This document shows positions 9,002 through 31,317 of a stretch of 32,451 nucleotides of DNA, in pieces. The notes beneath the pieces were generated by a model. That model searched no databases, was not told the DNA's origin, and saw only the letters and a program-made list of their open reading frames with translations. Source of the DNA: Spirochaetaceae bacterium (GTDB taxonomy: Bacteria > Spirochaetota > Spirochaetia > DSM-27196 > SKKC01); the NCBI GenBank assembly GCA_007694005.1, contig RECN01000111.1, positions 1 through 32,451 on the forward strand, written 5' to 3'. The translations under genes and the position numbers were made by a program. Positions within the stretch are counted from its first letter, which is position 1, and every line of letters begins with the position of its first letter.

Positions 9002-12000
9002 GTGAACATCAAAAAGAAGAGACCATCAGCGGCAGGGCTGTACCGCCCCGACTACGAACACGATGCCTGCGGCGTGGGGTTCGTCGCCCACATAAAGAAG
9101 AAGGCAAGTCACAGCATCGTTGAAGACGCAAAGCAGCTTCTCGTCAACATGACGCACCGTGGTGCGGTGGGAAGCGACAAGAACTCAGGCGATGGCGCCG
9201 GGGTTCTCACGGTTTTGCCGGAACGCTTTATCGAAAAAGTTGTGTCCGAGGAACTCGGTCTGAAACTGCCGGAACGCGGGCGATTTTCCGCCGGTGTGGT
9301 GTTTCTTCCGACCGATGACGCCGAGCGCGAAGGCTGCAAGAACGCCTTCGAAGCGATCGTAGAGGCCGAAGGCCAGCAGGTTGTCGGCTGGCGCACCGTC
9401 CCGCGTGATAACTCGATGATCGGACCGACTGCTCTTGCGAGCGAGCCGGTCATGGAGCAGATCTTTATCGCGGCATCGAGCACGGTCGACGAAGCGGCGT
9501 TCGAGCGCAGTCTGTTTCTCATACGAAAACAGGCCCAGTCTACGATCCGGGCCGGTGGGCACGATCCCGATCATTTCTTTTATATATGCAGTCTTTCCAC
9601 CCGGGTTATGGTCTATAAGGGCATGCTCATGCCCGAGCAGCTGTTTGAGTATTTTACCGATCTGAAAGACCCGGACTACGAGACGCATCTCGCACTGGTT
9701 CACTCTCGTTTCTCGACAAATACATTCCCGAGCTGGGACCGGGCACAGCCGCTTCGTTTTATGAGCCACAACGGTGAAATCAATACCCTCAGGGGTAACG
9801 TCAACAAAATGAAGGCACGCGAAGGCGTGCTTGCAAGCCCCCTGTTCGGAGACAGTCTCAAGCGCGCCTTTCCCATTATCGAGCCTGATCTCAGCGACTC
9901 GGGAACCTTCGACAACGTGCTCGAGCTTCTGATCATGTCGGGGTTTTCGCTTCCTGAAGCAGTCATGATGATGATTCCCGAGGCGTGGCAGAACCATGCG
10001 CTCATGCCCAACCACGGCAAGGCGATGTACGAGTACTTCTCAACCTTCATGGAACCCTGGGACGGGCCGGCTTCAATCGCCTTCACCGACGGGCACGTGA
10101 TCGGCGCGGTACTCGACCGTAACGGACTGCGGCCAAGCCGCTACTACGTAACAGAAGACGATCGAGTCATTATGGCGAGTGAGGTCGGCGTGCTGCCGGT
10201 CGATCCCTCAACGGTCGTGCGCAAGGGCAGGCTACAGCCGGGGCGTATGTTCCTCGTTGACTTTGAGCAGGGAAGGCTCGTTCCCGACGAGGAAATAAAG
10301 GACAAGATCGCATTTTCCAAGCCCTATCGCACCTGGCTCGAAGAGCAGCGCATCCGCCTCGAAGACCTCGAGGAGGTCAGTTCGCCGACCCCGACGCCGT
10401 CCGCGCCAGAGCTGCGTGGCAGTCACGCGTCCACCGCAGGAGGAAACGCAAACCTGTTCGCGATGATGCGCGCCTTCGGATACACCGTGGAGCACCTGAA
10501 CCTGATTCTCGGACCCATGGCGGAAACGGGTAAGGAGCAGTTAGGTTCCATGGGCAACGACGCGCCGCTCGCGTGTCTGAGTCCGCATCCGCGCCTCCTG
10601 TACGAGTACTTCAAACAGCTTTTTGCGCAGGTCACAAACCCGCCGATAGACTCTATTCGCGAAACCATCATCATGAGTCTGTCCTCGTATATAGGGCCTC
10701 AGGGAAACATCCTTGATCTCGGGGAAGGGCACGCGCACATGCTGCAGCTCGACCATCCCGTCCTGCGCAATCGTGAACTCGCGCTTCTGAAGAACATGGA
10801 GTTCAGGGGATGGTCGGCAAAAACCATCGATATAACCTACGAAAAAGCAGCGGGACACGACGGGTTCATGGCGGCCCTCGATCGCATCGCCGCAGAGTCC
10901 GAGGCCGCAATTGCAGACGGCTACCAGCTCGTGATCCTGTCGGACAGGGCGGTTTCCGAAAAGAGGATCCCGCTGAGCGCACTGCTCGCAACCGGCACGG
11001 TTCATCATCATCTCGTGAAGCAGGCCAAGCGGACGCAGATCGGTCTGGTCGTGGAGTCCGGCGAACCGCGTGAGGTGCATCACTTCTGCTGCCTTGTCGG
11101 ATACGGGGCAGACGCGATCAACCCCTACCTTGCCTTTGAGACCATGTGGTATCTCCGTGATTCCGGTCAGTACGCGAAAGACGAGACCTACAAGGAAATC
11201 GAAGACCGCTACCTCGGCGCGCTCGCCTACGGTATGCGCAAGGTATTCGGCAAGATGGGTATATCGACGCTCGACAGCTACAAGGGCGCGCAGATCTTTG
11301 AAGCCATCGGTCTGAAGTCCGAAGTCGTAGACCGCTCCTTCGCAGGCACGGCAACGCGCATCGAGGGTGTCGGCTACGATATACTCGCGAAAGAAGCGGC
11401 GATGCGCCACGAGATCGGGTATCTCGACGGGAATGCACCCATAGGAAGCGAGTTCTACAACCCCGGCGACTATCAGTGGCGCGTCGGCGGCGAGAAGCAC
11501 ATGTGGAACGCCGAATCCATTGCCTTCATGCAGCGGGCCGCCCGACAGAACGATCTCGACTCCTATCGCATGTTCAGCGCGAAGCAGGACGCCCGCGAGA
11601 AGGACCAGGCAACGCTCAGAGGACTGCTCGAGTTCCGCTGGGCCGATACCCCCATCCCTCTTGAAGAAGTGGAGTCTGCAAAGAGCATCGCGCGGCGTTT
11701 CGCCTCGGGAGCCATGAGCTTCGGTTCGATCAGTCAGGAAGCGCACGAGACGCTTGCCATCGCCATGAACCGCCTCGGGGCCAAGTCAAACACCGGCGAG
11801 GGCGGGGAAATGCGGGAGCGCTACAAACCGCTTCCCAACGGTGACAGCAAGCGCAGCGCGATCAAACAGGTCGCATCGGGCCGCTTCGGTGTCACCATCG
11901 AGTACCTGACCGAGAGCAACGAAATACAGATCAAAATGGCGCAGGGCGCGAAACCCGGTGAGGGTGGGGAGCTACCCGGACACAAGGTGTTCGATGTCAT

Positions 12001-13588
12001 CGCGAAGACGCGGTATTCGACCCCTGGTGTCGGACTGATCAGTCCACCACCACACCACGATATCTACTCGATTGAGGATCTCGCTCAGCTGATCTTTGAT
12101 CTGAAGAACGCCAACCCCGATGCACGCATCAGCGTAAAGCTCGTCAGCGAAGTCGGTGTCGGGACCATCGCAGCCGGTGTTGCAAAGGCACACGCTGACC
12201 ACATCCTCATTTCCGGACACGACGGCGGCACCGGTGCATCAGCCCTGACCGGTATCAAGCACGCGGGGCTTCCCTGGGAACTCGGACTCGCCGAGACGCA
12301 TCAGACGCTGGTCATGAACGGTCTTAGAAGCAGGGTCGTTCTTCAGACAGACGGACAGATCAAGACAGGACGCGACGTTGCGATCGCCGCGATGCTCGGT
12401 GCCGAGGAAGTCGGCATAGCGACGAGCGCGCTCATCGCTATGGGCTGCATAATGATGCGCGTCTGCCACAAGAATACCTGTCCGGTCGGTATCGCGACAC
12501 AGGATGAGCGTCTGAGAAAGAAGTTCTCCGGAACGCCGGAGGACATCATCAACTACGTGCTCTTCCTCTGCGAAGACTTGAGGAACATCATGGCAAAACT
12601 CGGCCTGCGCACCTTCGACGAACTCGTGGGACGCAACGATCTGCTGCGGGTCGATGAGTCTGTACGCAACTGGAAGAGCCGCGATGTAGACCTCAGCGCG
12701 CTGCTCTATCGTCCTGAACCGGGGGGAGACGATGACCGGGTCATCTGCTGCATCCCGCAGGATCACGGCATAGACCGGGTGCTCGACCGGACCTTTATCG
12801 AGGAAGCCGCGGCGAAGTTCGTTCCCCGGACAAAACTGCGCCTGGAGTATCCCATACACAACACCGACCGTTGCGTCGGCGGCATGCTCAGCCACTATCT
12901 CGTAAAGCAGTACGGCTTCGGTGAACTGCTCGATGACGCGATCAATATTCGCCTCACCGGGAGCGCCGGACAGAGTTTCGGCGCGTGGCTGTCGGGCGGA
13001 GTGACCCTCGAACTCGAAGGCGACGCGAACGACTACGTCGGCAAGGGGCTATCAGGCGGTCGTATCATCATCTATCCGCCGAAGAATTCCCGCTTCGTCG
13101 CTGAGAAAAACATCCTCATCGGCAACGTGGCGCTCTACGGGGCGACCTCCGGCGAGGGGTATTTTCGCGGCGTAGCGGCCGAACGCTTCTGCGTTCGCAA
13201 CTCCGGCGCGCGGGTCGTCGTTGAGGGCATCGGGGACCACGGCTGCGAATACATGACCGGCGGGCGGACCGTCATTCTCGGCGAGGTGGGCCGTAACTTC
13301 GGCGCCGGTATGTCCGGTGGCATCGCCTACATCTGGGACCGGCACGAACGGCTGCGAAGCAGAATCAACCCTGGCATGGTCGAAGTCTTTCCGCTGGATG
13401 AAGACGATGAGGCGGAACTTGTCGAGCTGGTGCAGCGCCACCTTGAGTTCACCGGAAGCTCGGTCGCCGAGCACCTGCTCGCCGGCTGGAAGGACCGGGT
13501 GGACGAGTTCGTGAAGGTCAGTTCACCGCGATTCCTCGATATACTTCGACTGCAGAAGTCGCAGGACAAGGAGCTTGTGCATGGGTAA
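9002..13588 (+). CDS. gltB: Glutamate synthase, large (alpha) subunit
   Basis: GltB makes two glutamates from glutamine and 2-oxoglutarate, using electrons passed on from GltD. The frame is open from a TTG at 8966, but that TTG is part of the promoter-like -35, so I use the GTG at 9002 (1528 residues, a usual length). Cys23 in HDACGVGF is the N-terminal nucleophile of the class II glutaminase domain, exposed after removal of a 22-residue propeptide. Residues about 23-440 form that domain, followed by the central domain. The FMN domain contains SGHDGGTGAS, and Cys1149, Cys1155 and Cys1160 (C-x5-C-x4-C, in CHKNTCPVG) bind the 3Fe-4S cluster. The C-terminal GXGXG beta-helix is present, with many Gly-rich turns. 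All key residues are intact. The stop overlaps gltD. Confidence 0.98.
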   Translation: MNIKKKRPSAAGLYRPDYEHDACGVGFVAHIKKKASHSIVEDAKQLLVNMTHRGAVGSDKNSGDGAGVLTVLPERFIEKVVSEELGLKLPERGRFSAGVVFLPTDDAEREGCKNAFEAIVEAEGQQVVGWRTVPRDNSMIGPTALASEPVMEQIFIAASSTVDEAAFERSLFLIRKQAQSTIRAGGHDPDHFFYICSLSTRVMVYKGMLMPEQLFEYFTDLKDPDYETHLALVHSRFSTNTFPSWDRAQPLRFMSHNGEINTLRGNVNKMKAREGVLASPLFGDSLKRAFPIIEPDLSDSGTFDNVLELLIMSGFSLPEAVMMMIPEAWQNHALMPNHGKAMYEYFSTFMEPWDGPASIAFTDGHVIGAVLDRNGLRPSRYYVTEDDRVIMASEVGVLPVDPSTVVRKGRLQPGRMFLVDFEQGRLVPDEEIKDKIAFSKPYRTWLEEQRIRLEDLEEVSSPTPTPSAPELRGSHASTAGGNANLFAMMRAFGYTVEHLNLILGPMAETGKEQLGSMGNDAPLACLSPHPRLLYEYFKQLFAQVTNPPIDSIRETIIMSLSSYIGPQGNILDLGEGHAHMLQLDHPVLRNRELALLKNMEFRGWSAKTIDITYEKAAGHDGFMAALDRIAAESEAAIADGYQLVILSDRAVSEKRIPLSALLATGTVHHHLVKQAKRTQIGLVVESGEPREVHHFCCLVGYGADAINPYLAFETMWYLRDSGQYAKDETYKEIEDRYLGALAYGMRKVFGKMGISTLDSYKGAQIFEAIGLKSEVVDRSFAGTATRIEGVGYDILAKEAAMRHEIGYLDGNAPIGSEFYNPGDYQWRVGGEKHMWNAESIAFMQRAARQNDLDSYRMFSAKQDAREKDQATLRGLLEFRWADTPIPLEEVESAKSIARRFASGAMSFGSISQEAHETLAIAMNRLGAKSNTGEGGEMRERYKPLPNGDSKRSAIKQVASGRFGVTIEYLTESNEIQIKMAQGAKPGEGGELPGHKVFDVIAKTRYSTPGVGLISPPPHHDIYSIEDLAQLIFDLKNANPDARISVKLVSEVGVGTIAAGVAKAHADHILISGHDGGTGASALTGIKHAGLPWELGLAETHQTLVMNGLRSRVVLQTDGQIKTGRDVAIAAMLGAEEVGIATSALIAMGCIMMRVCHKNTCPVGIATQDERLRKKFSGTPEDIINYVLFLCEDLRNIMAKLGLRTFDELVGRNDLLRVDESVRNWKSRDVDLSALLYRPEPGGDDDRVICCIPQDHGIDRVLDRTFIEEAAAKFVPRTKLRLEYPIHNTDRCVGGMLSHYLVKQYGFGELLDDAINIRLTGSAGQSFGAWLSGGVTLELEGDANDYVGKGLSGGRIIIYPPKNSRFVAEKNILIGNVALYGATSGEGYFRGVAAERFCVRNSGARVVVEGIGDHGCEYMTGGRTVILGEVGRNFGAGMSGGIAYIWDRHERLRSRINPGMVEVFPLDEDDEAELVELVQRHLEFTGSSVAEHLLAGWKDRVDEFVKVSSPRFLDILRLQKSQDKELVHG

Positions 13589-20500: not shown

Positions 20501-22960
20501 ATGAACCATCGTGAGAGTATGCGGCACGCGCTCACGAACCATCGTTATTCATTTCGTGTGCCGGTCTTCGTTTTCCTTCTCGTTCTCGTTTCGCACCAGG
20601 CATTCGCACAATCTGGCGTCGCTGCCTTCGTTATCGAACGACTCAGGGGTCCGATTGTCAATGCAGTTGATTCGACCATCGAAGTCGAAGATTCGGGACC
20701 CTTTGTGGATGCCGTTGTCGCATTCCTGCGCGACCGCGACGACGAAGCTGCGATTCATTTCGTTTCGGGTCTCATTGTGAACAGCATTGACTCCGAGGAG
20801 GATGTCGAAAACGTCCTGACAGCAATCGCCGGTGTGTCGAGTGTCAGTCAGATCGTGTTTGTCCTTGCTGGGCAGCGACAACTTGCTGCGCGGCTTGGTG
20901 CGTTTCAACAGGAGTTGTCACACGCTCCCGCGATAGAGCGGTGGAGAGAAGCTAAAGCTACCGGGGACGACGTGCAGATCGTCGACGGCGAGCTTGTCGT
21001 CGAAGAACAGGTAGCTGTCGAGGAACAGGAGGATGACCAGCCGGTTGTCGCTGTTACCGAAACCCCAACCTATGTACAGCGCAGAGACGACGAAGTCATG
21101 CCGCTTCTGAACGTCATTCACGGACGTCGGGGAGCCGAAGTCATCCTCGACGGTGAATCGGTGGGCCACTCGCTCTACGAAGAATATATGTTCGATGATC
21201 TTCCCGCAGGGCTTCGCGAGATTACTATTCGGGACAACGAGTACGAGTCGTCTCTGATGGTGTTCGTGAACCCCGGTCGCGAGACCGAGGCAAACTTCGA
21301 CGAGGTTGAGTTGCGCATGGAACGTGGGTACTTCACGCTTCAGGTGGAACCCGACGTGTCGGACCGTGCCGCTGAGACTATTTCCGTATACGTCGATGGG
21401 GTAAATCTCGGTGCCCCGCCGATAGAGGCAGACATACGAACCGGCACACGTCAGGTGGAGCTGCGAAGTGCATGGACCGAACGATACGCGATCGAGGTCA
21501 CCGGACAGATCGGTGATACGCAGACCCTCGCCCCGAATCTGGTTGAGTATGGGGCCATTCGGTTCGCAGACTCGATACCGGCAAGCACAATGGTGTCTTT
21601 CGATGACGCGAGCGATCTTGAAGAAGTCCGCTATGGAAGGAGAATGCTCAGACCGGGAACCTATCGCGTTCGTCTCGAAGATGATGCCGGGACATTCGAG
21701 CCGCTCACTGTTGAGGTGACTGTTGTACCGTTCGAGACGTCTCGTGTGGAACCCGACCTTTCGTTTCGACTCGGACAGCTCCGTGTTACGGAGCTCCCGC
21801 CTGCGACATCTGTCTATCTTGATGGTGAGCGCATTCATGAACCTGTTTCCATGGAATCCAGTCGTCTTGATGCTGTTGTCATTCCGGGGCTCGTTATTGG
21901 CGAGCGTGTCATCGCCCTGGATTCACCATTTACCGAAGATCCCTACGTGTTTCCTGTTACGTTGCGGGAGGGGCAGACGGTGGAGGTGTCTGCCGAAGCG
22001 GCTCGGCTTGAACTCAGTGGCATGGCTCCAGACGCCGAAATCCACCTGAATGGACACCGTGCCGAGTCGGTCTCCTTTGCAGCCGGCCCCGACAGCAGAG
22101 CGATATTCCTCCCGCCGGGAACCTATGAGTACGAGTTGCGGAGTGACCAGTACCCGGAGCCTCCGTCTGGGTCTGTTACGCTTGAACCGTCCGATCGACA
22201 TGCGGTTTCCTTTGACGATCAGCAGTTCGGGCAACTCCGGCTGGCGCTTGAGGTGGGCGACACCCTCGACCTCGGGCCAATCGAAGTCGAGCACTCGTCG
22301 GAGTTTGTGTACGAAATCGAATCCATGGATGGGGAGATCACTATCCGTTCGACCGTTGGTACGGTTGATAGCTCGATTGCGGCAACCGTCGCGCGATGGT
22401 TCGGCGGCGCCGAAGAAACTGAAGAAGGCGATGATGATGATCCTGGCGTTAGACAGCTTCGAACTTTTCTACCCCCGGGAACGTATACTGCGTCCCTCGG
22501 TCGTGAGGACGATACAGGTCCGCCATCGACCGTACAGTTCGAGATTGAGCCGTGGTCGACACATAGTGCACATCTCGTAGGCCAGGTGACATCTGAGCTC
22601 TTCATGGCTGAGCTTGGACTTGCTCTGGACGACGTCGGTGAGCAGCTCGCACCTGCCCGCAGGGCTCGCGTCGTGCGTAATGTAGCGTTTGGCACCTCGA
22701 TCGCGGCGGGCGTTTTTGGAGGCTATGCGATCTATCGGGCTACGTCGCTGCAGGACGAATACCATGACGCGGCTACGACGTCCAAGGCGGTGGAACTTCG
22801 CGGCAGGAGCGAGGCATGGGGGCTCACCGGATCGCTGAGTCTCGGCGGTGCGATCGGGTTCGCTACTGCGGGAACCATTTCCGCGTTCCTGAGCTCCCCC
22901 GACCCCGAGCTGCTTGCGACCGAACGCGCCCTTGAGACCCGAATCGAGGAGTTACGATGA
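20501..22960 (+). CDS. Secreted multi-PEGA-repeat protein with C-terminal two-helix membrane module
   Basis: The 819-residue product has a signal peptide ending AFA, cleaved near residue 36. Residues 37-195 form a helical and acidic region. From about 200 to 700 there are some five or six PEGA-like beta units, each with a 'xVxLDGxxx' strand and a 'LPxGxYxxxL' hairpin, as in AEVILDGESVGHS, SVYLDGERIHEP, ..LPPGTYEYEL and ..LPPGTYTASL. Near the C-terminus are two hydrophobic helices (about 727-746 and 775-796) joined by a soluble loop, then a charged tail. That end is clearly related to the end of the caspase-like protein at 26004. PEGA domains are extracytoplasmic and often bind surface polymers. 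The next gene overlaps by four bases. No enzyme motif is visible. Confidence 0.82.
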   Translation: MNHRESMRHALTNHRYSFRVPVFVFLLVLVSHQAFAQSGVAAFVIERLRGPIVNAVDSTIEVEDSGPFVDAVVAFLRDRDDEAAIHFVSGLIVNSIDSEEDVENVLTAIAGVSSVSQIVFVLAGQRQLAARLGAFQQELSHAPAIERWREAKATGDDVQIVDGELVVEEQVAVEEQEDDQPVVAVTETPTYVQRRDDEVMPLLNVIHGRRGAEVILDGESVGHSLYEEYMFDDLPAGLREITIRDNEYESSLMVFVNPGRETEANFDEVELRMERGYFTLQVEPDVSDRAAETISVYVDGVNLGAPPIEADIRTGTRQVELRSAWTERYAIEVTGQIGDTQTLAPNLVEYGAIRFADSIPASTMVSFDDASDLEEVRYGRRMLRPGTYRVRLEDDAGTFEPLTVEVTVVPFETSRVEPDLSFRLGQLRVTELPPATSVYLDGERIHEPVSMESSRLDAVVIPGLVIGERVIALDSPFTEDPYVFPVTLREGQTVEVSAEAARLELSGMAPDAEIHLNGHRAESVSFAAGPDSRAIFLPPGTYEYELRSDQYPEPPSGSVTLEPSDRHAVSFDDQQFGQLRLALEVGDTLDLGPIEVEHSSEFVYEIESMDGEITIRSTVGTVDSSIAATVARWFGGAEETEEGDDDDPGVRQLRTFLPPGTYTASLGREDDTGPPSTVQFEIEPWSTHSAHLVGQVTSELFMAELGLALDDVGEQLAPARRARVVRNVAFGTSIAAGVFGGYAIYRATSLQDEYHDAATTSKAVELRGRSEAWGLTGSLSLGGAIGFATAGTISAFLSSPDPELLATERALETRIEELR

Positions 22961-24174
22961 GACAGCGGTACACGGCAATTCTCGGATCATCGCTCGTGTG
23001 TGTGATGGTATTCGCGACCTGTACGAATCTCCTTCTCGACGAGTTTGACAACCCGGTCGATCCGGAGGCGGAGGCATATCAGGGCTACGACACCGTTGAC
23101 AGCATCGACGACATTCAACTTCACATAGAAGAAGGAGAAGATCTGGCGTGGCCGACCTTTGTCGTGAGCAGGGTAACCGGAGCCGACTCCTACGACGTTC
23201 AGATTGCAGAATCTGAGGATTTCGGACCGGAGTCGATTGTGTATGACGGGAGTGGTTACGCCACAAACCTTATGCGTCCAGCTTTCGATCCCGAGGATCC
23301 GGAAGTCGTAGCCGGAGAAACCTATTATTGGCGAGCTCGGGCAGTTGAAAGCGGAGCCGCTGGTTTGTGGACCGAGCCGCGGTCCTTCCAGCCGTACGGA
23401 GTCCTCGGTATGACCCCTGAGGACGGATCGTTTGTGAGTACCGAAAGACCTACCGTCAGCTGGGAACCGGTCGAGGATGTTACCGACTACGTAATCGTAT
23501 TCGGGGTGACTGAGGACGGGAGTTTCGCCGAAGACGATCTCGTTGGCAGTGTTGTTGACGGAGATCAAACGTCAGTAGTCCCTCCGGCCGATATCAATCC
23601 GGGGCAGACAGGAATCTGGATGATGGTAGCGATTGATGGTGACGACCACGGTCCGTGGAGCCCGATATACACAGTGTATCGGCCGGATATTGGCTCGACC
23701 GGACCGGCAGGCGGAGCGATTTTCTATATCGATGATGAGGATGCATTCGATTGGACTTTTCTAGAGGCTGCTCCTGAAGAGACCGAGTGGGCCTTTGAGT
23801 TTTGGGGAGGTATGGGAACTTTCGCGGGCGGGACGAGTACTGCGCTTGGAACCGGGGAGGACAATACGGCTGCTATTGTACAAGAATATGGTACCCATGA
23901 GCCACTATACGGAGATTCTGACTACGCTGCTCGGCTCGCACAGAATCTGGAGCATAACGGATACGATGACTGGTATTTACCGTCCCGAGAGGAGCTTAGG
24001 TTAATACGTGACAATCTTTACGCAGAGGGTATCGGAGGTTTTGGGGCGCCGAGATACTGGAGCTCATCGGAGTACGACGATGAACGCGCATGGACGCACT
24101 GGTTTGGAAATGACAGTCAGGACCCGAGTGATAAGTGGTTAAACACGAGCGTACGCGCGATTCGGTCGTTTTAG
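22957..24174 (+). CDS. FN3-like/DUF1566 lipoprotein
   Basis: Starts at an ATGA overlap with the PEGA gene. The 405-residue product has a signal sequence ending VFATC, a relaxed lipobox with Cys22. After the anchor comes the motif DNPVDPEAEAYQGYDTVD, shared with the lipoprotein at 28994. Residues about 60-145 and 150-240 look like two FN3-type beta domains (for example GETYYWRARAVESG). From about 248 the protein is a DUF1566 (Lcl C-terminal) domain: GPAGGAIFYID, DDWYLPSREELRLI, YWSSSEYDD and the closing VRAIRSF. DUF1566 is found on surface lectin-like or attachment proteins. The C-terminal 35 residues, in the usual place of sequence variation, may be diversified. A terminator-like sequence follows. 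Confidence 0.85.
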   Translation: MRQRYTAILGSSLVCVMVFATCTNLLLDEFDNPVDPEAEAYQGYDTVDSIDDIQLHIEEGEDLAWPTFVVSRVTGADSYDVQIAESEDFGPESIVYDGSGYATNLMRPAFDPEDPEVVAGETYYWRARAVESGAAGLWTEPRSFQPYGVLGMTPEDGSFVSTERPTVSWEPVEDVTDYVIVFGVTEDGSFAEDDLVGSVVDGDQTSVVPPADINPGQTGIWMMVAIDGDDHGPWSPIYTVYRPDIGSTGPAGGAIFYIDDEDAFDWTFLEAAPEETEWAFEFWGGMGTFAGGTSTALGTGEDNTAAIVQEYGTHEPLYGDSDYAARLAQNLEHNGYDDWYLPSREELRLIRDNLYAEGIGGFGAPRYWSSSEYDDERAWTHWFGNDSQDPSDKWLNTSVRAIRSF

Positions 24175-24226: not shown

Positions 24227-24252
24227 TTCCTCAGACGACGGCGACATAGTCG

Positions 24253-24278
24253 GCACAGCGAAGCATGTGCTTTTTTTT
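24253..24278 (+). terminator. Intrinsic terminator-like hairpin with T8
   Basis: GCACA at 24253-24257 pairs with TGTGC at 24266-24270 across an eight-base loop, and eight T residues follow at 24271-24278. The stem is short, so termination may be partial, but the uninterrupted T-run right after it is typical. It separates the PEGA/DUF1566 unit from the caspase unit. The rest of the gap to 24429 shows no clear promoter. Confidence 0.5.
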
Positions 24279-24429
24279 CTCAGCCAGCCATTATGAGCGG
24301 AAAATTGTTGCCACAACGGCCGTGCGAATCTTGCGGAACAGAAAATCGCACAGTAGCCTGTACAGGGAATAACTCAAAAACGGTCCGAATTTTGAATCAT
24401 GATCGTGACGTGGGCCTCGGGGAGAGCGG

Positions 24430-26001
24430 ATGCGATTCCGTCACTACGTCCTTGTTGTGTTTCTACTCCTTAGCGGGGCAACTGCCTTCGCACAGTCGTG
24501 GGTCGACTCGTTCGGTCTTCATAGCGATTATGCACTACCCCGATACCTCACCGGGTATGGGTATTCGGATCTCGCCGATCATGCGGAACGGATACAAACC
24601 GCACGGAATACCGCACTCGCTGATCTCGCCCGGACTGTACAGACACGAATTACGAGCACTGAGGACATCCGTACCTACGCGGACGAGCACACCGAGAGAA
24701 CCCGCTACGTAAACGCAACACAGACAGCGACCGATCTACGGGTTTCCGGGGTGCGGTACGAAATAGAGGAACGAGGCAACGGCACGCACGCGCTCGCCTG
24801 GATTGAGGTGCAGGAGCTTCGCCGACAGTATCTTGAGCAGGCGCGTGACACAGAATCACGATTGCAGGCGCTGCTTGGCGCGCTCGAAGAGATGCTTGCG
24901 CTCGGAAGTACCGACCGCGCTGGCCGGCATCTGCACGATGCGGACGCGGCACTTACCGTTTTATTCGATAATGTAACCGTAATACGTGCCCTTGATGCGC
25001 TCGCATCCCCCCGTCATTCGTCCACGAACAGCGTACAAATGGCTGAGCCATACCCGGATCCTCGTCTGTTTGTACGAGCGGTTCGCGACGCCGAGCGACA
25101 GTTGGCTTTGTTCCGTCCGGCTACGGTAGAGCAGGCCGCTACGCTTCTCGCACGACGCCTTGCCGAACAGCACTGCGGCCGATTTCAGGTCATGCCGCTT
25201 CTGTATGAAGACTCCGACTTTTCGAGTGCTTTTGGAAACAGGTTTTCAGGAGTCATAGAGGCAAGCGTTCCGGCTGAAGCGAATCATCGAAATCAATCAC
25301 ACAATGTAACGTCGTCGGATGCGATCGTGAGGGGGAGTTATTGGGTCGACGAGGAGACCATCGAAGTTCAGGTGACAGCTCGTTCAGTTCAGCATGGACA
25401 GATCGTTGCTTCAGCACGCACGACTGTGCCGGTTTCTTCTGTGCGTCCCGATACGCTCTATCCTGCCAACCTCGAATCCGCACTGGCTGCTGGAAGCGAG
25501 CTCCTGAACGATCAGATCGTTTCCGGTGGGATTAACGTCGAGGTCTGGACTGACCGCGGCCGACACGAGCGCTCGCTTGTTTTTGAGGAAGGCGAGCCGG
25601 TTCAGTTCTATTTCAGGGTTAATCAACCCGCGTTTCTTCAGCTCAGTTATGTGCTTGCTACCGGGCAGACAATATTACTGGAAGAACAGTTTTACATCGG
25701 CATGGATAGAGTGAACCGCGTGGTCGCGTTGCCGTATCGCTTCGAGGTTGTACCTCCGTTCGGCGTAGAGCGACTCATTGTCACAGCTCACTCCGGGATC
25801 CCTCCTCGACCGAATGTTTCTCCACAACGGATAGCGGGACAGTGGTACGAAGTCTTTGGAACCCCCGGTGATGCTGTCGCGCGTACCAGAGGCCTTGTCA
25901 GGGAACGCTCACCGGAACGCGAAGGCACAGATAGTTCAACGTGGCAGCGTGTTGGTGAGGCGCACGTGACGATTACAACGGTAGCACAGGCACAGGAGTG
26001 A
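24430..26001 (+). CDS. Exported LPP20-like/DUF4384 protein
   Basis: GGGGAGAG stands a few bases before the ATG. The 523-residue product has a signal peptide cleaved after AFA near residue 21. Residues about 38-130 resemble LPP20-type exported domains (LTGYGYSDLADHAERIQTAR, then a conserved Ala-rich helix and a strand ALAWIEV). About 130-195 are helical, and 210-345 a mixed domain like the CsgG/FlgO-type exported domains. Residues about 368-452 are a DUF4384-like domain: INVEVWTDRGR, FEEGEPVQFYFRVNQPAFLQ, LLEEQFYIG and ERLIVTAHSG. DUF4384 proteins commonly sit next to or are fused to caspase-like peptidases, which is the case here: the caspase gene follows two bases after the stop. Probably a periplasmic partner or regulator of the protease. 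Confidence 0.82.
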   Translation: MRFRHYVLVVFLLLSGATAFAQSWVDSFGLHSDYALPRYLTGYGYSDLADHAERIQTARNTALADLARTVQTRITSTEDIRTYADEHTERTRYVNATQTATDLRVSGVRYEIEERGNGTHALAWIEVQELRRQYLEQARDTESRLQALLGALEEMLALGSTDRAGRHLHDADAALTVLFDNVTVIRALDALASPRHSSTNSVQMAEPYPDPRLFVRAVRDAERQLALFRPATVEQAATLLARRLAEQHCGRFQVMPLLYEDSDFSSAFGNRFSGVIEASVPAEANHRNQSHNVTSSDAIVRGSYWVDEETIEVQVTARSVQHGQIVASARTTVPVSSVRPDTLYPANLESALAAGSELLNDQIVSGGINVEVWTDRGRHERSLVFEEGEPVQFYFRVNQPAFLQLSYVLATGQTILLEEQFYIGMDRVNRVVALPYRFEVVPPFGVERLIVTAHSGIPPRPNVSPQRIAGQWYEVFGTPGDAVARTRGLVRERSPEREGTDSSTWQRVGEAHVTITTVAQAQE

Positions 26002-26003
26002 GA

Positions 26004-28994
26004 ATGGAGTTGAGACTGTTAACCCGCGTGTTGAAAACAGCATGTGTACTTTGCTTTGTACTCGGTACCCATGTACACGCATCCGGGTTCTCTCGGGTCG
26101 CGCTGATTATTGGAAACAGTAATTATGAGGTGCAGCCGCTTGCAAACCCGATTAATGACGCGACCGATATGGCGGCGATGCTTGAGTCTCTCGGATTTGA
26201 AGTGTTTGTCGAGTTAGACGCTACACGCGGTGGAATGGAGCGGGCGGTTCGAGCATTTGTCGATGCGGTTGAGAGACACAACGCTGAGACTGCGCTTTTT
26301 TATTATGCCGGGCATGCAGTTCAGTTCGAGGGGGTAAACTACCTGCTTCCGGTAAACGCGAATATTCGCGACAGTTTCGAGCTCCTCGATCAGGCGCTCA
26401 GCATGGACCGTGTTACCGTCGGCCTTGAGCGATCCGGTACAGAGTTCAACCTGGTTATGCTTGATGCCTGTCGGGATAATCCGTTTTCGACTACCCGAAG
26501 CGCGTCCCGTGGCCTGTCGGTCATGGGTGGAGGCGGTCGCGGTAGCATGGTGGTGTTCGCGACCGCGCCCGGAGATGTTGCTGATGATGGTGCCGGACAG
26601 CGGAATAGCCCGTTTACACAGGCTCTGTTACGCCATATAGCCACTCCTGGTCTCGAAGTGCGCCAGATCGTTACAGAGGTTCAGCGTGGTGTCCAACAGG
26701 CTACCGGTGGGCGCCAGATTCCGTGGGTCAATACTTCCTTTACCGGAGAGTTTTACTTTACGACAGCCGAAGAGCAACTCGCACGCAGTCGGAGTCAGGC
26801 GCGCGAGCTTGAAGCGGAACTTGCAGCTCTTGAAGCGGAAATCGCCGAACGCGCGCAAGCTATACAGGGAGCGGCAAGTGCTGAGGAACGTCGAAGACTG
26901 GACGGTGAGCAGCAGGCAGCACGCGCGCGGGAGGAAGCGAACAGATTACAGGCAGAGCGCCTGGCCGAGATAGAGCGGCAGGCAGCGGCGGCTCTGGAAC
27001 AGCAACGGGCACAGGCAGCGCTCCGCCAGGAGATGGAAGCGCAGCTGTCAGCACAGCAGGCAAGCCTGTCGCGGCAGGCGGAACAGCGACGCGCGGAGCT
27101 GGATAGACTTCGCCTTGAAACAGCCGGCCGAGACGGTTTTTTCGAGCGGTTGACGACGATTGCACAGATCAACGCCACGATCCCCGAAATTGAGTTGAGG
27201 TTTGACGGGATCGTCACGTCCACGCTTGCAGAACTGAACACCTTGCACCGGCAGCAAATCGTTTCCTACGAGGATGAGAATACACCCGATCCCTGGGAAA
27301 CATCCGAGGAATATGAGACACGAATCGAGCGGGAGCTCCTTGCGCTGGAAGCGTCACACGAGCGGGAGATAACACGACAACGCGACGACCTGCTGACGCG
27401 TAAGACCGAGGAGATTCAGAGACTGCAGGAAGAGCTGGAAACAGTGCGCGGAGAGCTCAATGGTGCACGGTTTACCGTCGGGGCTGAAGCGATAGAGGTC
27501 GTGGTTGATGAGTTGGATCCCTACCGGCGCGAGTTTCCAATTACCGTTCGGGTGACCGATGAGCGGCTGCCCTTCGCAGTGTCCGCACCGTATCGAATTC
27601 AAGGTACTGAACGCGACACAATCAGGGATGAATATTTTCGGGTCTTCAGCGCTGATAGGGCTGGAGGACTCAGCGGTGAACTGGAGTACTCCATGCACGA
27701 AGTGCTCCCGAACCTCTGGGCTATTCGGGTTGTTGAGACGCGTGTCGTGAACTTGCTGGAAGGCGACACCGTCCTTGCAACGGTGGGATCGTCACGTACA
27801 ACAGAACCGGTTTCGACGAGCGCAGGCAGGGGCGAGATACTGTATATGACCGACGGAGAGGTGCAACGTGTAGGCGCTGCCGTAGTCATAATGAGCTCGC
27901 ACGGTTCAGCAAATGTAGTACGTGGAGAGACGGTTCTGGGACAGACCGACTATCTGTATACGACGCCCGGCGACTCGACCTCGAACACCGGTCGCCTTAC
28001 GCTGGAGTGGGAAGACGGACAGCATCGAACGTTTACCTTTCCGATACAGCCCGGCATGAACCCCCCTGTGTTGGTCGACCGTTCTGGTGAAAGAACCAAC
28101 GCACTACGTCTCGTGCACGTATACAATCTCCATCCTTCCATAGAAACGAGTATTGGACGTGATATACACACGGTGCGCACCTTCGCCGAAGGTTCGGTAA
28201 CATACCTGACGGATGGACACGCAGTCCGTTTTTCAGGAGCGTATCTTTTCGATCCTGCTGAGATTAGCTTGAGTGAACGCCTTTCGGGGGGAGATGCGGC
28301 AGTTCGGTGGATTGACGCTGCGGCGCTTGACAGTCAGCTCACCGGCCGTCTGAGGATTGCTTCCGTTGGAGACATTTTTACCGTGTACGATGCCGAGGGG
28401 CAGCCGGTAGAGACGCGCACTGGACAGTCGTCGACAGCCATTCAGCTGAGACCGGGACAGTACGAGGTGGCATTCCGACAACCCGAAGACCCGTACTACG
28501 CTCATGTCGAACACGTTACGGTTGAACCCGCAACCGAGGTGCATCTCGATGTGGCAGATGTGGGCCTTTCTGCGCAGTATCGACTGGAGCAGGCCGAAGC
28601 GGCTCAGCTGGAGACCAAACGGCTTCTCAGCCGGAACCGACGTGGCAGAACATACGGTTGGACGCTGATCGGAACAGGACTCTCGGGATTTGCCGTCAGC
28701 GCTTTGAGCTACCTGCAGGTACAGCACGCGACAACCTCGTATAACGAAGCAAGCACAACAGCTGCAGCGCTTCAACATCGGCAGGAAGTGGAACAATGGG
28801 GTACCGGATTTACGGTATCAGCCGGTGTCGGTATAAGCGGGAGCGTCATTGGAAGTCTTATCCTGCGGCGAAACAGGGACCGGACATCACTTGAGCAGCA
28901 GCAGGACGAAATTAATCGCCGGATCGCAGCATTGCGTGAAGAAATTTCCGCGCAGCGGGCGACAAGTGTCGTCCTGGGTCGAGGAGGAAACTGA
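26004..28994 (+). CDS. Exported caspase-like (peptidase C14) protease with coiled coil and membrane module
   Basis: AGGAG precedes the ATG at 26004; a GTG at 25998 is also in frame. The 996-residue protein has a signal peptide of about 27 residues. Residues 28-252 are a caspase/metacaspase p20-like domain: RVALIIGNSNYEVQPLANP, the catalytic His104 in YYAGHAVQ, and the catalytic Cys156 in LDACRDNPF; both are intact. Residues about 255-375 and 440-490 are charged, Ala/Glu/Arg-rich coiled coils. About 495-850 are beta-rich, ending in a PEGA-like unit (LRPGQYEVAFRQ). Two hydrophobic helices at about 885-903 and 932-953 with a short loop match the C-terminus of the PEGA protein at 20501. The active domain is therefore outside the cytoplasm. 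It overlaps the FGE-fold lipoprotein gene by one base. Confidence 0.9.
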   Translation: MELRLLTRVLKTACVLCFVLGTHVHASGFSRVALIIGNSNYEVQPLANPINDATDMAAMLESLGFEVFVELDATRGGMERAVRAFVDAVERHNAETALFYYAGHAVQFEGVNYLLPVNANIRDSFELLDQALSMDRVTVGLERSGTEFNLVMLDACRDNPFSTTRSASRGLSVMGGGGRGSMVVFATAPGDVADDGAGQRNSPFTQALLRHIATPGLEVRQIVTEVQRGVQQATGGRQIPWVNTSFTGEFYFTTAEEQLARSRSQARELEAELAALEAEIAERAQAIQGAASAEERRRLDGEQQAARAREEANRLQAERLAEIERQAAAALEQQRAQAALRQEMEAQLSAQQASLSRQAEQRRAELDRLRLETAGRDGFFERLTTIAQINATIPEIELRFDGIVTSTLAELNTLHRQQIVSYEDENTPDPWETSEEYETRIERELLALEASHEREITRQRDDLLTRKTEEIQRLQEELETVRGELNGARFTVGAEAIEVVVDELDPYRREFPITVRVTDERLPFAVSAPYRIQGTERDTIRDEYFRVFSADRAGGLSGELEYSMHEVLPNLWAIRVVETRVVNLLEGDTVLATVGSSRTTEPVSTSAGRGEILYMTDGEVQRVGAAVVIMSSHGSANVVRGETVLGQTDYLYTTPGDSTSNTGRLTLEWEDGQHRTFTFPIQPGMNPPVLVDRSGERTNALRLVHVYNLHPSIETSIGRDIHTVRTFAEGSVTYLTDGHAVRFSGAYLFDPAEISLSERLSGGDAAVRWIDAAALDSQLTGRLRIASVGDIFTVYDAEGQPVETRTGQSSTAIQLRPGQYEVAFRQPEDPYYAHVEHVTVEPATEVHLDVADVGLSAQYRLEQAEAAQLETKRLLSRNRRGRTYGWTLIGTGLSGFAVSALSYLQVQHATTSYNEASTTAAALQHRQEVEQWGTGFTVSAGVGISGSVIGSLILRRNRDRTSLEQQQDEINRRIAALREEISAQRATSVVLGRGGN

Positions 28995-30478
28995 TGGGTA
29001 TGCAAACTCGCGGGCACCTGTGTGTATTGATTGCTGTCACAGCGGTGGCGCTCACCGTGGGCAGTTGCCTGAACCCATTCCTCTCGCAGCTTGACAACCC
29101 GGTTGATCCCCATGCCGACGGATATCAGGGATATCATACCGTCGAAGACCCCTCCGAAATCGAACCCGTAAACCGCGAGGAAGCAGCGTCCTTTTTCCCG
29201 CCACAATTTACCGCCCAAAAGGTTGCCGCAGCCGTTGCATATCAGTTTCAAGTTGCAACTGAAAATACCTTTGCTTCCGAAAACATCGTGTATACCAGCG
29301 AAGAGCTTGTTTCCAATGAACACCTGCCGGTCAACTTCGAAGGACATTCTCCTGTAGAAACCTATTATTGGCGCGTACGGGCCAAGGCGGGAGCCGAGTG
29401 GGGAACGTGGTCCAATGTAGTGGGCAGCTTTACCCTCACTCCCATTACCGGTCAAACACCAGTTCATGACAGTACAACGATCAACACATCCCCAACCCTC
29501 ACCTGGAACGAGGTCAATGGTGCAGTTGGCTACGAGCTGCGCGTTGCAGAAACCCAATATGCTCTCCAGGATCTGAATGATGATGATTTCATTGAAGTAG
29601 AAAACGCTGAGTTTCAGGTGCCTGCCCCCCTTGTCATTGGCAACGTTCGCTGGTGGTCGGTTCGGGCCGTTAACGGCTCTGGCGTTCGGAGTGCATGGAC
29701 GAGTCCAGCGGTGTTCAAAGTTACTCTCCTTTCCATGCGGGATGTCCAAGGTGGATCTTCTACTGATATACCAAACGGCACGGAAAATGGTGTCTGGTCT
29801 GTTTCGAGCTTTCACATAGGGCTTTATCCTATTACGCAATATCAATATGAAGTGATTATTGGACGTAACCCGTCTGACACCGATAGGGGGATTGGTCCGG
29901 ATAATCCTGTAAACACAGTAAGCTGGTACGATGCTCTTGTTTTCTGTAACACCTTAAGCGTGAACGAGGGCTTGACCCTTGTATACAGCATAGGAGGTAG
30001 TAAAAATCCGGAAGATTGGGGGGAAGTACCTTCAGACCGAGACGAGACCTGGGACGCGGTCGAGATGGATATAAACGCCAACGGCTACCGGCTGCCCACA
30101 GAAGCCGAGTGGGAGTGGGCAGCCAGAGGTGGAGTAAATAGTAACGGGTACACATATGCCGGAAGTAACAGCATCGATGATGTTGCGTGGTGGAGAGATA
30201 ACAGTGGATTGACGACCCACCCGGTTGGACAAAAACTACCCAATGAACTCGGCCTTTATGACATGACAGGCAATGTCTGGGAATGGAAATGGGATTGGAC
30301 TGGTGCTGACGATATGAACGGCAATAACCCGACTGGTCCGGTTTCTGGAGGAAGTCGCCGCGCTAGAGGTGGCAGCCATGCTAGCGGCGACTCTGTAGCC
30401 ATTTTTTCTTACCGTGGTGGCAGCTCACCAGAGAACAGAAGCAGAACTACAGGCTTCCGTGTAGTCCGGCGTCCCTGA
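28994..30478 (+). CDS. FN3-like/FGE-sulfatase-fold lipoprotein, possible DGR target
   Basis: GAGGAGG lies seven bases before the ATG. The 494-residue product has a signal peptide and lipobox TVGSC (Cys25), then DNPVDPHADGYQGYHTVED, nearly the same as in the lipoprotein at 22957. Two FN3-like domains follow (about 65-150 and 152-245). Residues about 250-494 are an FGE-sulfatase (formylglycine-generating-enzyme-like, C-type-lectin) domain: VSWYDALVFCNTLS, YRLPTEAEWEWAARGG, DMTGNVWEW and GFRVVRRP. The two cysteines used by true FGE are missing; Cys318 is the only Cys in this domain. So it is a binding fold, not an enzyme. The final 45 residues look like a diversified region of a retroelement target. 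Operon with the caspase suggests it is the displayed sensor. Confidence 0.88.
   Translation: MGMQTRGHLCVLIAVTAVALTVGSCLNPFLSQLDNPVDPHADGYQGYHTVEDPSEIEPVNREEAASFFPPQFTAQKVAAAVAYQFQVATENTFASENIVYTSEELVSNEHLPVNFEGHSPVETYYWRVRAKAGAEWGTWSNVVGSFTLTPITGQTPVHDSTTINTSPTLTWNEVNGAVGYELRVAETQYALQDLNDDDFIEVENAEFQVPAPLVIGNVRWWSVRAVNGSGVRSAWTSPAVFKVTLLSMRDVQGGSSTDIPNGTENGVWSVSSFHIGLYPITQYQYEVIIGRNPSDTDRGIGPDNPVNTVSWYDALVFCNTLSVNEGLTLVYSIGGSKNPEDWGEVPSDRDETWDAVEMDINANGYRLPTEAEWEWAARGGVNSNGYTYAGSNSIDDVAWWRDNSGLTTHPVGQKLPNELGLYDMTGNVWEWKWDWTGADDMNGNNPTGPVSGGSRRARGGSHASGDSVAIFSYRGGSSPENRSRTTGFRVVRRP
30352..30475 (+). other. Candidate variable region (DGR VR-like) at the end of the FGE-fold gene
   Basis: The last 40 codons of the FGE-fold gene contain runs of codons of the form NNY where a DGR template would have AAC or AAT: for example CAT GCT AGC GGC GAC, ATT TTT TCT TAC and GGT GGC AGC. 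They are framed by fixed codons such as CGT and the conserved GFRVV end. FGE-fold lipoproteins (for example TvpA of Treponema denticola) are known DGR targets in spirochaetes. No reverse transcriptase or template repeat is present in this window, so the assignment is an inference from position, fold and codon pattern. Confidence 0.4.
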
Positions 30479-30728: not shown

Positions 30729-30935
30729 ATGCGTACAACAGTCACACTCGACGACGACCTGCTCAAAGAAGCAGAAGAGCTTACCGGCGTTACCGAACGA
30801 TCCCGGCTGATTCGCGACGGCCTGCTGGCTCTTATACAGCGGGAGTCCTCTCGGCGACTTGCGCGTCTCGGTGGAACTATGCCGGAAATCGCGGATGTCC
30901 CACGACGGAGGCCTGCCGAGGATGATTCTCGCTGA
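30729..30935 (+). CDS. vapB: VapB-type antitoxin (ribbon-helix-helix)
   Basis: AGGAGG lies six bases before the ATG at 30729; the open frame from 30699 has no such site. The 68-residue product starts with the ribbon strand MRTTVTLDDDLLKEAEELTG, followed by the helix-turn of an RHH DNA-binding domain (TERSRLIRDGLLALIQRE), and ends with a basic, flexible tail (PRRRPAEDD) that in this family binds the toxin. It overlaps the toxin gene by 14 bases, so both are co-translated. By family knowledge it neutralises the VapC RNase and, with it, represses the operon. It follows the FGE-fold gene after 250 bases of non-coding sequence and is likely an independent unit. Confidence 0.9.
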   Translation: MRTTVTLDDDLLKEAEELTGVTERSRLIRDGLLALIQRESSRRLARLGGTMPEIADVPRRRPAEDDSR

Positions 30936-31317
30936 TACATCCGTCTGGCTCGACCACTTCAGAAACCCGAATTCCCCGTTTTCTACGGCGCTTGACTCCG
31001 GTCTTATCGCGACCCATCCCTTTGTGATCGGAGAGCTGGCATGCGGAAACCTCTCCGGGCGAGCAGGGGTACTCCGGGACCTCGCGAACCTGCCGGTCGT
31101 GGACAGGGCCTCTGACCGTGAAGTGATGACGCTCATCGAGACGCATAGCCTCATGGGGCGTGGTGTTGGCCTCATCGACATGCATCTGCTGGCTTCTTCC
31201 CTCATTACACCGGATACAAAACTCTGGACCCACGACAAGCGCCTGAACCACATTGCAGACGAGCTTGGCGTTTCATATGAAGGAAACACGGTACGCAGGC
31301 GAACAGACAGTGAGTAA
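30922..31317 (+). CDS. vapC: VapC-type toxin, PIN-domain ribonuclease
   Basis: The 131-residue PIN-domain protein starts at the ATG at 30922, inside the antitoxin gene, with GAG just upstream. The open frame from 30859 would overlap the antitoxin far more. Acidic metal-binding residues are in place: Asp6 in LADTSVWLDHF, Glu in VIGELACGNL, and the Asp of RGVGLIDMHLLAS with the later Asp of THDKRL. Length and motif order are those of VapC enzymes, magnesium-dependent ribonucleases, several of which cut initiator tRNA or rRNA. No substrate can be read from the sequence. Confidence 0.92.
   Translation: MILADTSVWLDHFRNPNSPFSTALDSGLIATHPFVIGELACGNLSGRAGVLRDLANLPVVDRASDREVMTLIETHSLMGRGVGLIDMHLLASSLITPDTKLWTHDKRLNHIADELGVSYEGNTVRRRTDSE

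Follow-up and report, generated by a model that had tools for sequence, protein, structure and literature searches.

Discussion of bacterial caspases usually treats them as effectors of death or defence in the cytoplasm. Fusions of caspases with FGE domains and the diversification of caspase-lectin proteins by diversity-generating retroelements (DGRs) are already known (PMC7517822, PMC3501461), and conflict systems in which caspases are linked to DGRs have been described too (PMC10907252, PMC7159879). Here we describe a three-gene unit in a 32,451-nucleotide stretch of DNA from Spirochaetaceae bacterium (contig RECN01000111.1; hereafter the window), which is one whole contig of a 3.9-Mb genome that is 96% complete. 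Three FlaA matches in this genome, against none in 14 control genomes, agree with its being a spirochaete. The unit encodes a DUF4384 protein, a caspase and a lipoprotein with an FGE-fold head, all of them predicted to be exported. It seems, with a probability of about 0.6, that this is a ligand-sensing envelope receptor-caspase, in which the lipoprotein would be the sensor and the exported caspase the effector. The anatomy of the unit, the conserved pairing of caspase and lipoprotein and the swapping of heads were observed computationally, and so was diversification by DGRs of the corresponding heads in two genomes of the same order.

Anatomy of the three-gene unit

The three open reading frames (ORFs) are present and spaced as a first-pass annotation of the window had described: the caspase ATG at 26004 leaves a two-base gap after gene 1, and the start codon of the lipoprotein shares one base with the stop codon of the caspase. 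A possible GTG start of the caspase at 25998 (998 amino acids) would change the first junction to a four-base overlap. The export signals claimed for all three products were also recovered, as predicted signal peptidase I (SPase I)-like signals in genes 1 and 2 and a lipobox in gene 3. Guanine-plus-cytosine content is close in the unit (0.52-0.57) and in the remaining window (0.58), and thus the composition gives no sign of recent acquisition.

In the caspase, an SPase I-like signal peptide (approximately residues 1-28) is followed by a full-length C14 domain in one chain (residues 31-251, matching positions 2-233 of the 233 in PF00656; 9.6e-40), a coiled coil (approximately 255-485) and a beta-rich region (approximately 489-849, from AlphaFold2 (AF2) secondary structure only). 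The AF2 model was built from 5 sequences, with a mean predicted local distance difference test (pLDDT) score of 63 and mostly below 50 in the caspase domain, and was not used for fold claims. Both catalytic residues named in the first-pass annotation align to the dyad of MALT1 and are kept in nearly all of the aligned relatives (Table 1), of which a family scan covered a 67-member subset. In addition, D52 and D154 align to D365 and D462 of MALT1, which we take to be the acidic residues selecting Arg at P1; D154 is kept in 78/78 relatives, and the position of D52 is D or E. These pocket residues predict cleavage after Arg or Lys. The caspase had been called membrane-tethered, and two C-terminal hydrophobic stretches do exist (residues 888-906 and 935-955; mean hydropathy 1.3-1.7), so that a weaker form of the claim stands, with the topology not certain. 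PADLOC gave no confident system match, only a weak generic caspase match of 31 bits. Neither an NTPase (MoxR, STAND, GTPase) nor an EACC1-type adaptor turned up when the unit and the two genes before it were scanned with Pfam and NCBIfam.

The lipoprotein carries the lipobox LTVGSC with the lipid Cys25 (a Cys invariant in 13 relatives), the motif C-(x)n-DNPVDPxxxxYQGYxTV, two Fn3-like domains and an FGE/TvpA-type C-type-lectin head, and its Pfam matches are FGE-sulfatase (3e-36) and Ig/Fn3. The closest solved relative of the head is TvpA of Treponema denticola, a variable protein that a DGR diversifies (2y3c, 1.4e-44, versus approximately 1e-14 for human FGE), a match that gives it the C-type-lectin variable-protein fold. 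The earlier description as an FGE-fold partner was therefore right about the fold and understated the likeness to TvpA. The loss of the FGE catalytic cysteines was confirmed: the motif RGGSxxCxxxYC is replaced in the window head (RGGSHASGDSVA), but its cysteines are retained in a genuine FGE encoded at another place in this genome (RGGSYLCHHSYC). Because TvpA is the closest solved relative and the FGE cysteines are replaced, the head is most likely a ligand-binding C-type lectin and not a modifying enzyme.

Gene 1 has an SPase I-like signal peptide and a C-terminal domain whose assignment to DUF4384 held up (Pfam 2.2e-6, above the cut-off). Its N-terminal domain is LPP20-like by a profile match to HP1454 (4kzs, an LPP20-family structure; 4e-4), so that the protein combines an LPP20-like domain with DUF4384; the Pfam LPP20 family is matched in its homologues, not in the window protein itself. 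The middle is CsgG/TolB-like (structure only, weak). Foldseek matched the AF2 model (mean pLDDT 75) to HP1454 and LpoB, and these profile and fold matches suggest an accessory envelope protein.

Pairing of the caspase tail with a lipoprotein family

A survey of the class for C14 domains covered 395 genomes and was positive in 134, and we read the surroundings of approximately 60 of the strongest loci. An export-like N-terminal hydrophobic segment was found in 78 of the 79 caspases with a readable N terminus, and judging from these segments most caspases of the class are exported. An exported caspase is thus not the exception that the first-pass annotation made of it, and extracellular prokaryotic caspases were suggested already in 2012 (PMC3501461).

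The tail of the window caspase, as a profile (CTAIL), was detected in 15 of 83 caspases. An Fn3 lipoprotein adjoins 11 of these 15 and none of the 68 caspases without CTAIL (Fisher 8e-11, uncorrected for relatedness), and the paired genes mostly overlap or nearly so; two of the four CTAIL caspases without an adjoining lipoprotein reach a contig end. Among the caspases without CTAIL, 32 of 68 have the same C-type-lectin heads fused to them. Lipoproteins of the family also lie near CTAIL proteins that have no caspase domain, namely in the window (20501-24174), on contig 91 of genome G008 (with an ankyrin protein between) and in genome G410. In the reverse test, covering all 46 genomes of the order, each of the five full-signature lipoproteins shared its unit with a protein bearing the tail module, which in three cases was a caspase. 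Common to the lipoproteins are the lipid Cys, the DNPVDP...YQGY motif and the Fn3 stalk, but their heads vary (FGE/TvpA, DUF1566, FG-GAP, laminin-G plus Kelch, RCC1, CHB_HEX_C). The simplest reading of these comparisons would be that the docking pair is fixed, while both the head and the effector can be exchanged.

The first-pass annotation would have counted a gene order confined to this genome as a refutation, but the order is found in other genomes as well. The full DUF4384-caspase-lipoprotein order recurs in another family (G496, locus L153; gaps 3 and -1), the caspase-lipoprotein pair occurs in six families, and a DUF4384-type gene lies directly upstream of the caspase on the same strand in 10 of 83 cases and directly downstream in one, with DUF4384-caspase neighbours in nine families. 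Within the 46 genomes of the order the window caspase has two full-length relatives, both in G008 and each followed, with a four-base overlap, by a lipoprotein of the same Fn3 family, one with an FGE head (L021) and the other with a DUF1566 head (L020). In G001 the gene immediately after a DUF4384 gene encodes a caspase with a fused DUF1566 head (L026). The two congeneric genomes, whose contigs end or are rearranged just short of the locus, were without the lipoprotein and without a caspase match when the window protein was the query, and a plasmid search returned caspase-domain matches only, chiefly from Rhizobium and relatives.

Some further arrangements were seen. Tandem arrays of genes for exported caspases that bear FGE or DUF1566 heads occur at L025 (G022 contig 72) and L171 (G392 contig 22), one copy at L025 being broken by frameshifts or stops (approximately 10852-12087). 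Ankyrin-SH3-caspase proteins of approximately 1050-1100 amino acids with a C-terminal C14 domain were found at L097 (G410), adjoining the same kind of lipoprotein and a DUF4384 gene, and at L025 (454-3756), adjoining a caspase-FGE gene. Near both caspase-lipoprotein loci of G008 are small proteins (L020 7015-8285, L021 6460-6930) with a near-identical terminal membrane segment (QWTIGIGFTV.TVLM..YNF.G). Runella sp. MFBS21 of the Bacteroidota has several clustered genes for caspase-FGE proteins whose N termini resemble signal peptides (L019). In the window itself, a PIN-domain toxin-like gene lies directly 3' of the unit (30859-31317), with an apparent small upstream partner, and a second unit of CTAIL protein and lipoprotein precedes the three genes (Table 1).

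Table 1. Positions of the unit, its parts and the neighbouring features in the window
Feature	Position	Strand	Remarks
PEGA protein with C-terminal CTAIL, non-caspase	20501..22960	+	819 aa; CTAIL profile aa 503-819; PEGA by Pfam
Second Fn3 lipoprotein, same family, DUF1566/Lcl_C head	22957..24174	+	4-base overlap with CTAIL gene
Terminator-like hairpin (24252-24271) plus T-run, between the two CTAIL-lipoprotein units	24252..24280	+	Pattern scan only
Gene 1, predicted exported DUF4384 protein	24430..26001	+	523 aa; ORF
Gene 2, predicted exported caspase	26004..28994	+	996 aa; ORF
Putative catalytic His104, codon CAT	26313..26315	+	Aligned to MALT1 H415; kept in 76/78 relatives
Putative catalytic Cys156, codon TGT	26469..26471	+	Aligned to MALT1 C464; kept in 76/78 relatives
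CTAIL, proposed lipoprotein docking module	27525..28979	+	Hidden Markov model from this tail, approximately aa 508-992
Gene 3, putative sensor lipoprotein	28994..30478	+	494 aa; ORF
Head, FGE-fold, TvpA-like	29798..30469	+	2y3c 1.4e-44
Segment matching DGR variable region of relatives	30362..30475	+	Alignment

Diversification of the heads in relatives

Two genomes of the same order as the window genome have the anatomy of DGRs that would act on caspase-linked sensors. In G008 the variable region is in the DUF1566 head of a caspase-linked lipoprotein, with the template approximately 650 bases downstream and the reverse transcriptase (RT) beyond it, and changes fall on 20 of 44 template A positions versus 10 of 93 others (p 1e-5). 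The template next to an RT in G007 corresponds to the heads of three different caspase-FGE proteins, which are encoded on separate contigs (L028, L024, L029); the nearest head differs at 19 of 31 template A positions versus 6 of 95 others (p 8e-10), and the other two give p 6e-8 and 2e-5. The RTs of both genomes have the motif IGNLTSQ and not QG..SP, and together with the template/variable-region pairs this motif ruled out a reading as group II intron RTs. The RT of G001 (L026) and both of G474 (L161) are likely to belong to group II introns because of their QGG..SP motif and, in L026, a maturase domain. DGR-like RT fragments near two caspase-DUF1566 fusions of G288 (L101, L102), where no template repeat was detected, are possibly decayed DGRs.

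The window genome gave no RVT_1 or DGR-RT match, and searching its own DNA found no template repeat for the variable segment of the head. The head was therefore rejected as a live DGR target and is not currently diversified; at most it would have been a DGR target in the past, or it is related to such targets but without an RT. The excess of pyrimidines at the third base of its last 45 codons (33/45 versus 264/449) is too weak a signal to argue from.

Proposed mechanism, alternatives and known systems

The first-pass annotation had proposed that a surface sensor is wired to an envelope protease, and this wiring gains strong comparative support from the exclusive pairing, the fused and split forms, the swappable heads and the DGR-diversified heads of relatives. 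We suggest that the lipoprotein would act as the sensor, anchored by its lipid and composed of a conserved docking motif, an Fn3 stalk and an exchangeable head, and the caspase as the effector, exported, held via its C-terminal module and with an intact His/Cys dyad, while the DUF4384/LPP20-like protein would be an accessory envelope protein. A ligand would be bound by the head, the Fn3 stalk and the motif would engage the caspase tail, and a signal through stalk and tail would cluster or activate the caspase, which may then cut envelope proteins after Arg or Lys and cause self-damage or a proteolytic signal. A broader version is more tentative and, in our judgement, somewhat more doubtful than credible: a modular envelope immune-receptor platform, in which one docking pair (caspase tail plus DNPVDP/Fn3 stalk) could plug any head onto an extracytoplasmic caspase, heads being exchanged between species and hypermutated where a DGR is present, so that variable surface recognition triggers the caspase.

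Several points weigh against the receptor-caspase proposal. The docking of caspase and lipoprotein, the activation, the substrate and the outcome are steps that we infer. Basic residues stand before the first C-terminal hydrophobic segment of the caspase and make its topology uncertain, the caspase sample is biased to high scorers, and at L183 and L191 another gene adjoins the CTAIL caspase. The window genome has neither the RT nor the template found in its relatives, and the DUF4384 gene, usually missing beside caspases, may be an optional partner.

The alternative that survives best is an adhesion or surface-display unit, in which the lipoproteins are variable-tip adhesins that the caspase, as a protease of housekeeping or maturation, processes or sheds, with no alarm and no cell damage. 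The lipoprotein heads include generic binding folds, and a CTAIL partner without a caspase adjoins the caspase unit in the window; however, 32 other exported caspases are fused to the same heads, which mere processing would not require, and we consider this explanation unlikely. Less probable still is that caspase and lipoprotein are merely co-transcribed envelope genes with no joint mechanism. Although their physical docking is a step that we infer, the pairing is exclusive to one tail module, the motif is conserved and docking-like, caspase and head occur in split and fused forms, and CTAIL pairs with the lipoprotein even without a caspase. A cytoplasmic-type conflict system of the kind of Kaur et al. 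2020 and Dore et al. 2024, with export signals over-interpreted, shares the caspase and C-type-lectin parts and a weak NCBIfam caspase_w_EACC1 match, but it is very improbable given the score of that match (62.6 versus a cut-off of 140), the export-like N termini of nearly all relatives, the invariant lipobox Cys and a unit without NTPase or EACC1 adaptor.

If the coupling in the receptor-caspase proposal is real, bacteria would have a parallel, open to testing, to a variable receptor that triggers a caspase, and it suggests roles beyond adhesion for some variable spirochaete lipoproteins.

Among the known systems, the cyanobacterial orthocaspase-type DGR variable proteins (PMC7517822) likewise join a caspase-type peptidase to a DGR-type C-type-lectin domain. 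There, one chain holds both peptidase and lectin, and a cytosolic location is predicted for most of the variable proteins, whereas in the window the caspase carries an export signal and a C-terminal module of its own and the putative receptor, with its interchangeable heads, is a lipoprotein encoded by a separate gene. TvpA of T. denticola and the related DGR lipoproteins (2y3c; PMC4891356) are spirochaete lipoproteins and include the closest solved relative of the head, but the window genome differs in having no template repeat or RT, and the word caspase is absent from the survey of these lipoproteins (PMC4891356). The putative antigen sensors that DGRs diversify in multicellular bacteria (PMC10907252) and the ternary/NTPase conflict systems (PMC7159879) also link a variable C-type-lectin sensor to caspase or trypsin effectors, some targets being predicted periplasmic or secreted; in contrast to the three-gene unit, they have adaptor domains and NTPases of the MoxR/STAND kind. 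For prokaryotic metacaspases, N termini resembling signal peptides and fusions to FGE-sulfatase domains have been catalogued, and extracellular roles suggested, in the available part of PMC3501461, which does not mention a split lipoprotein partner, an exchange of heads or the tail module. As the parts are known and full-text searches of open-licence papers did not bring up a split envelope form that is based on a lipoprotein and swaps its heads, the unit is best read as a new, split and lipoprotein-based envelope variant of the known caspase-C-type-lectin systems.
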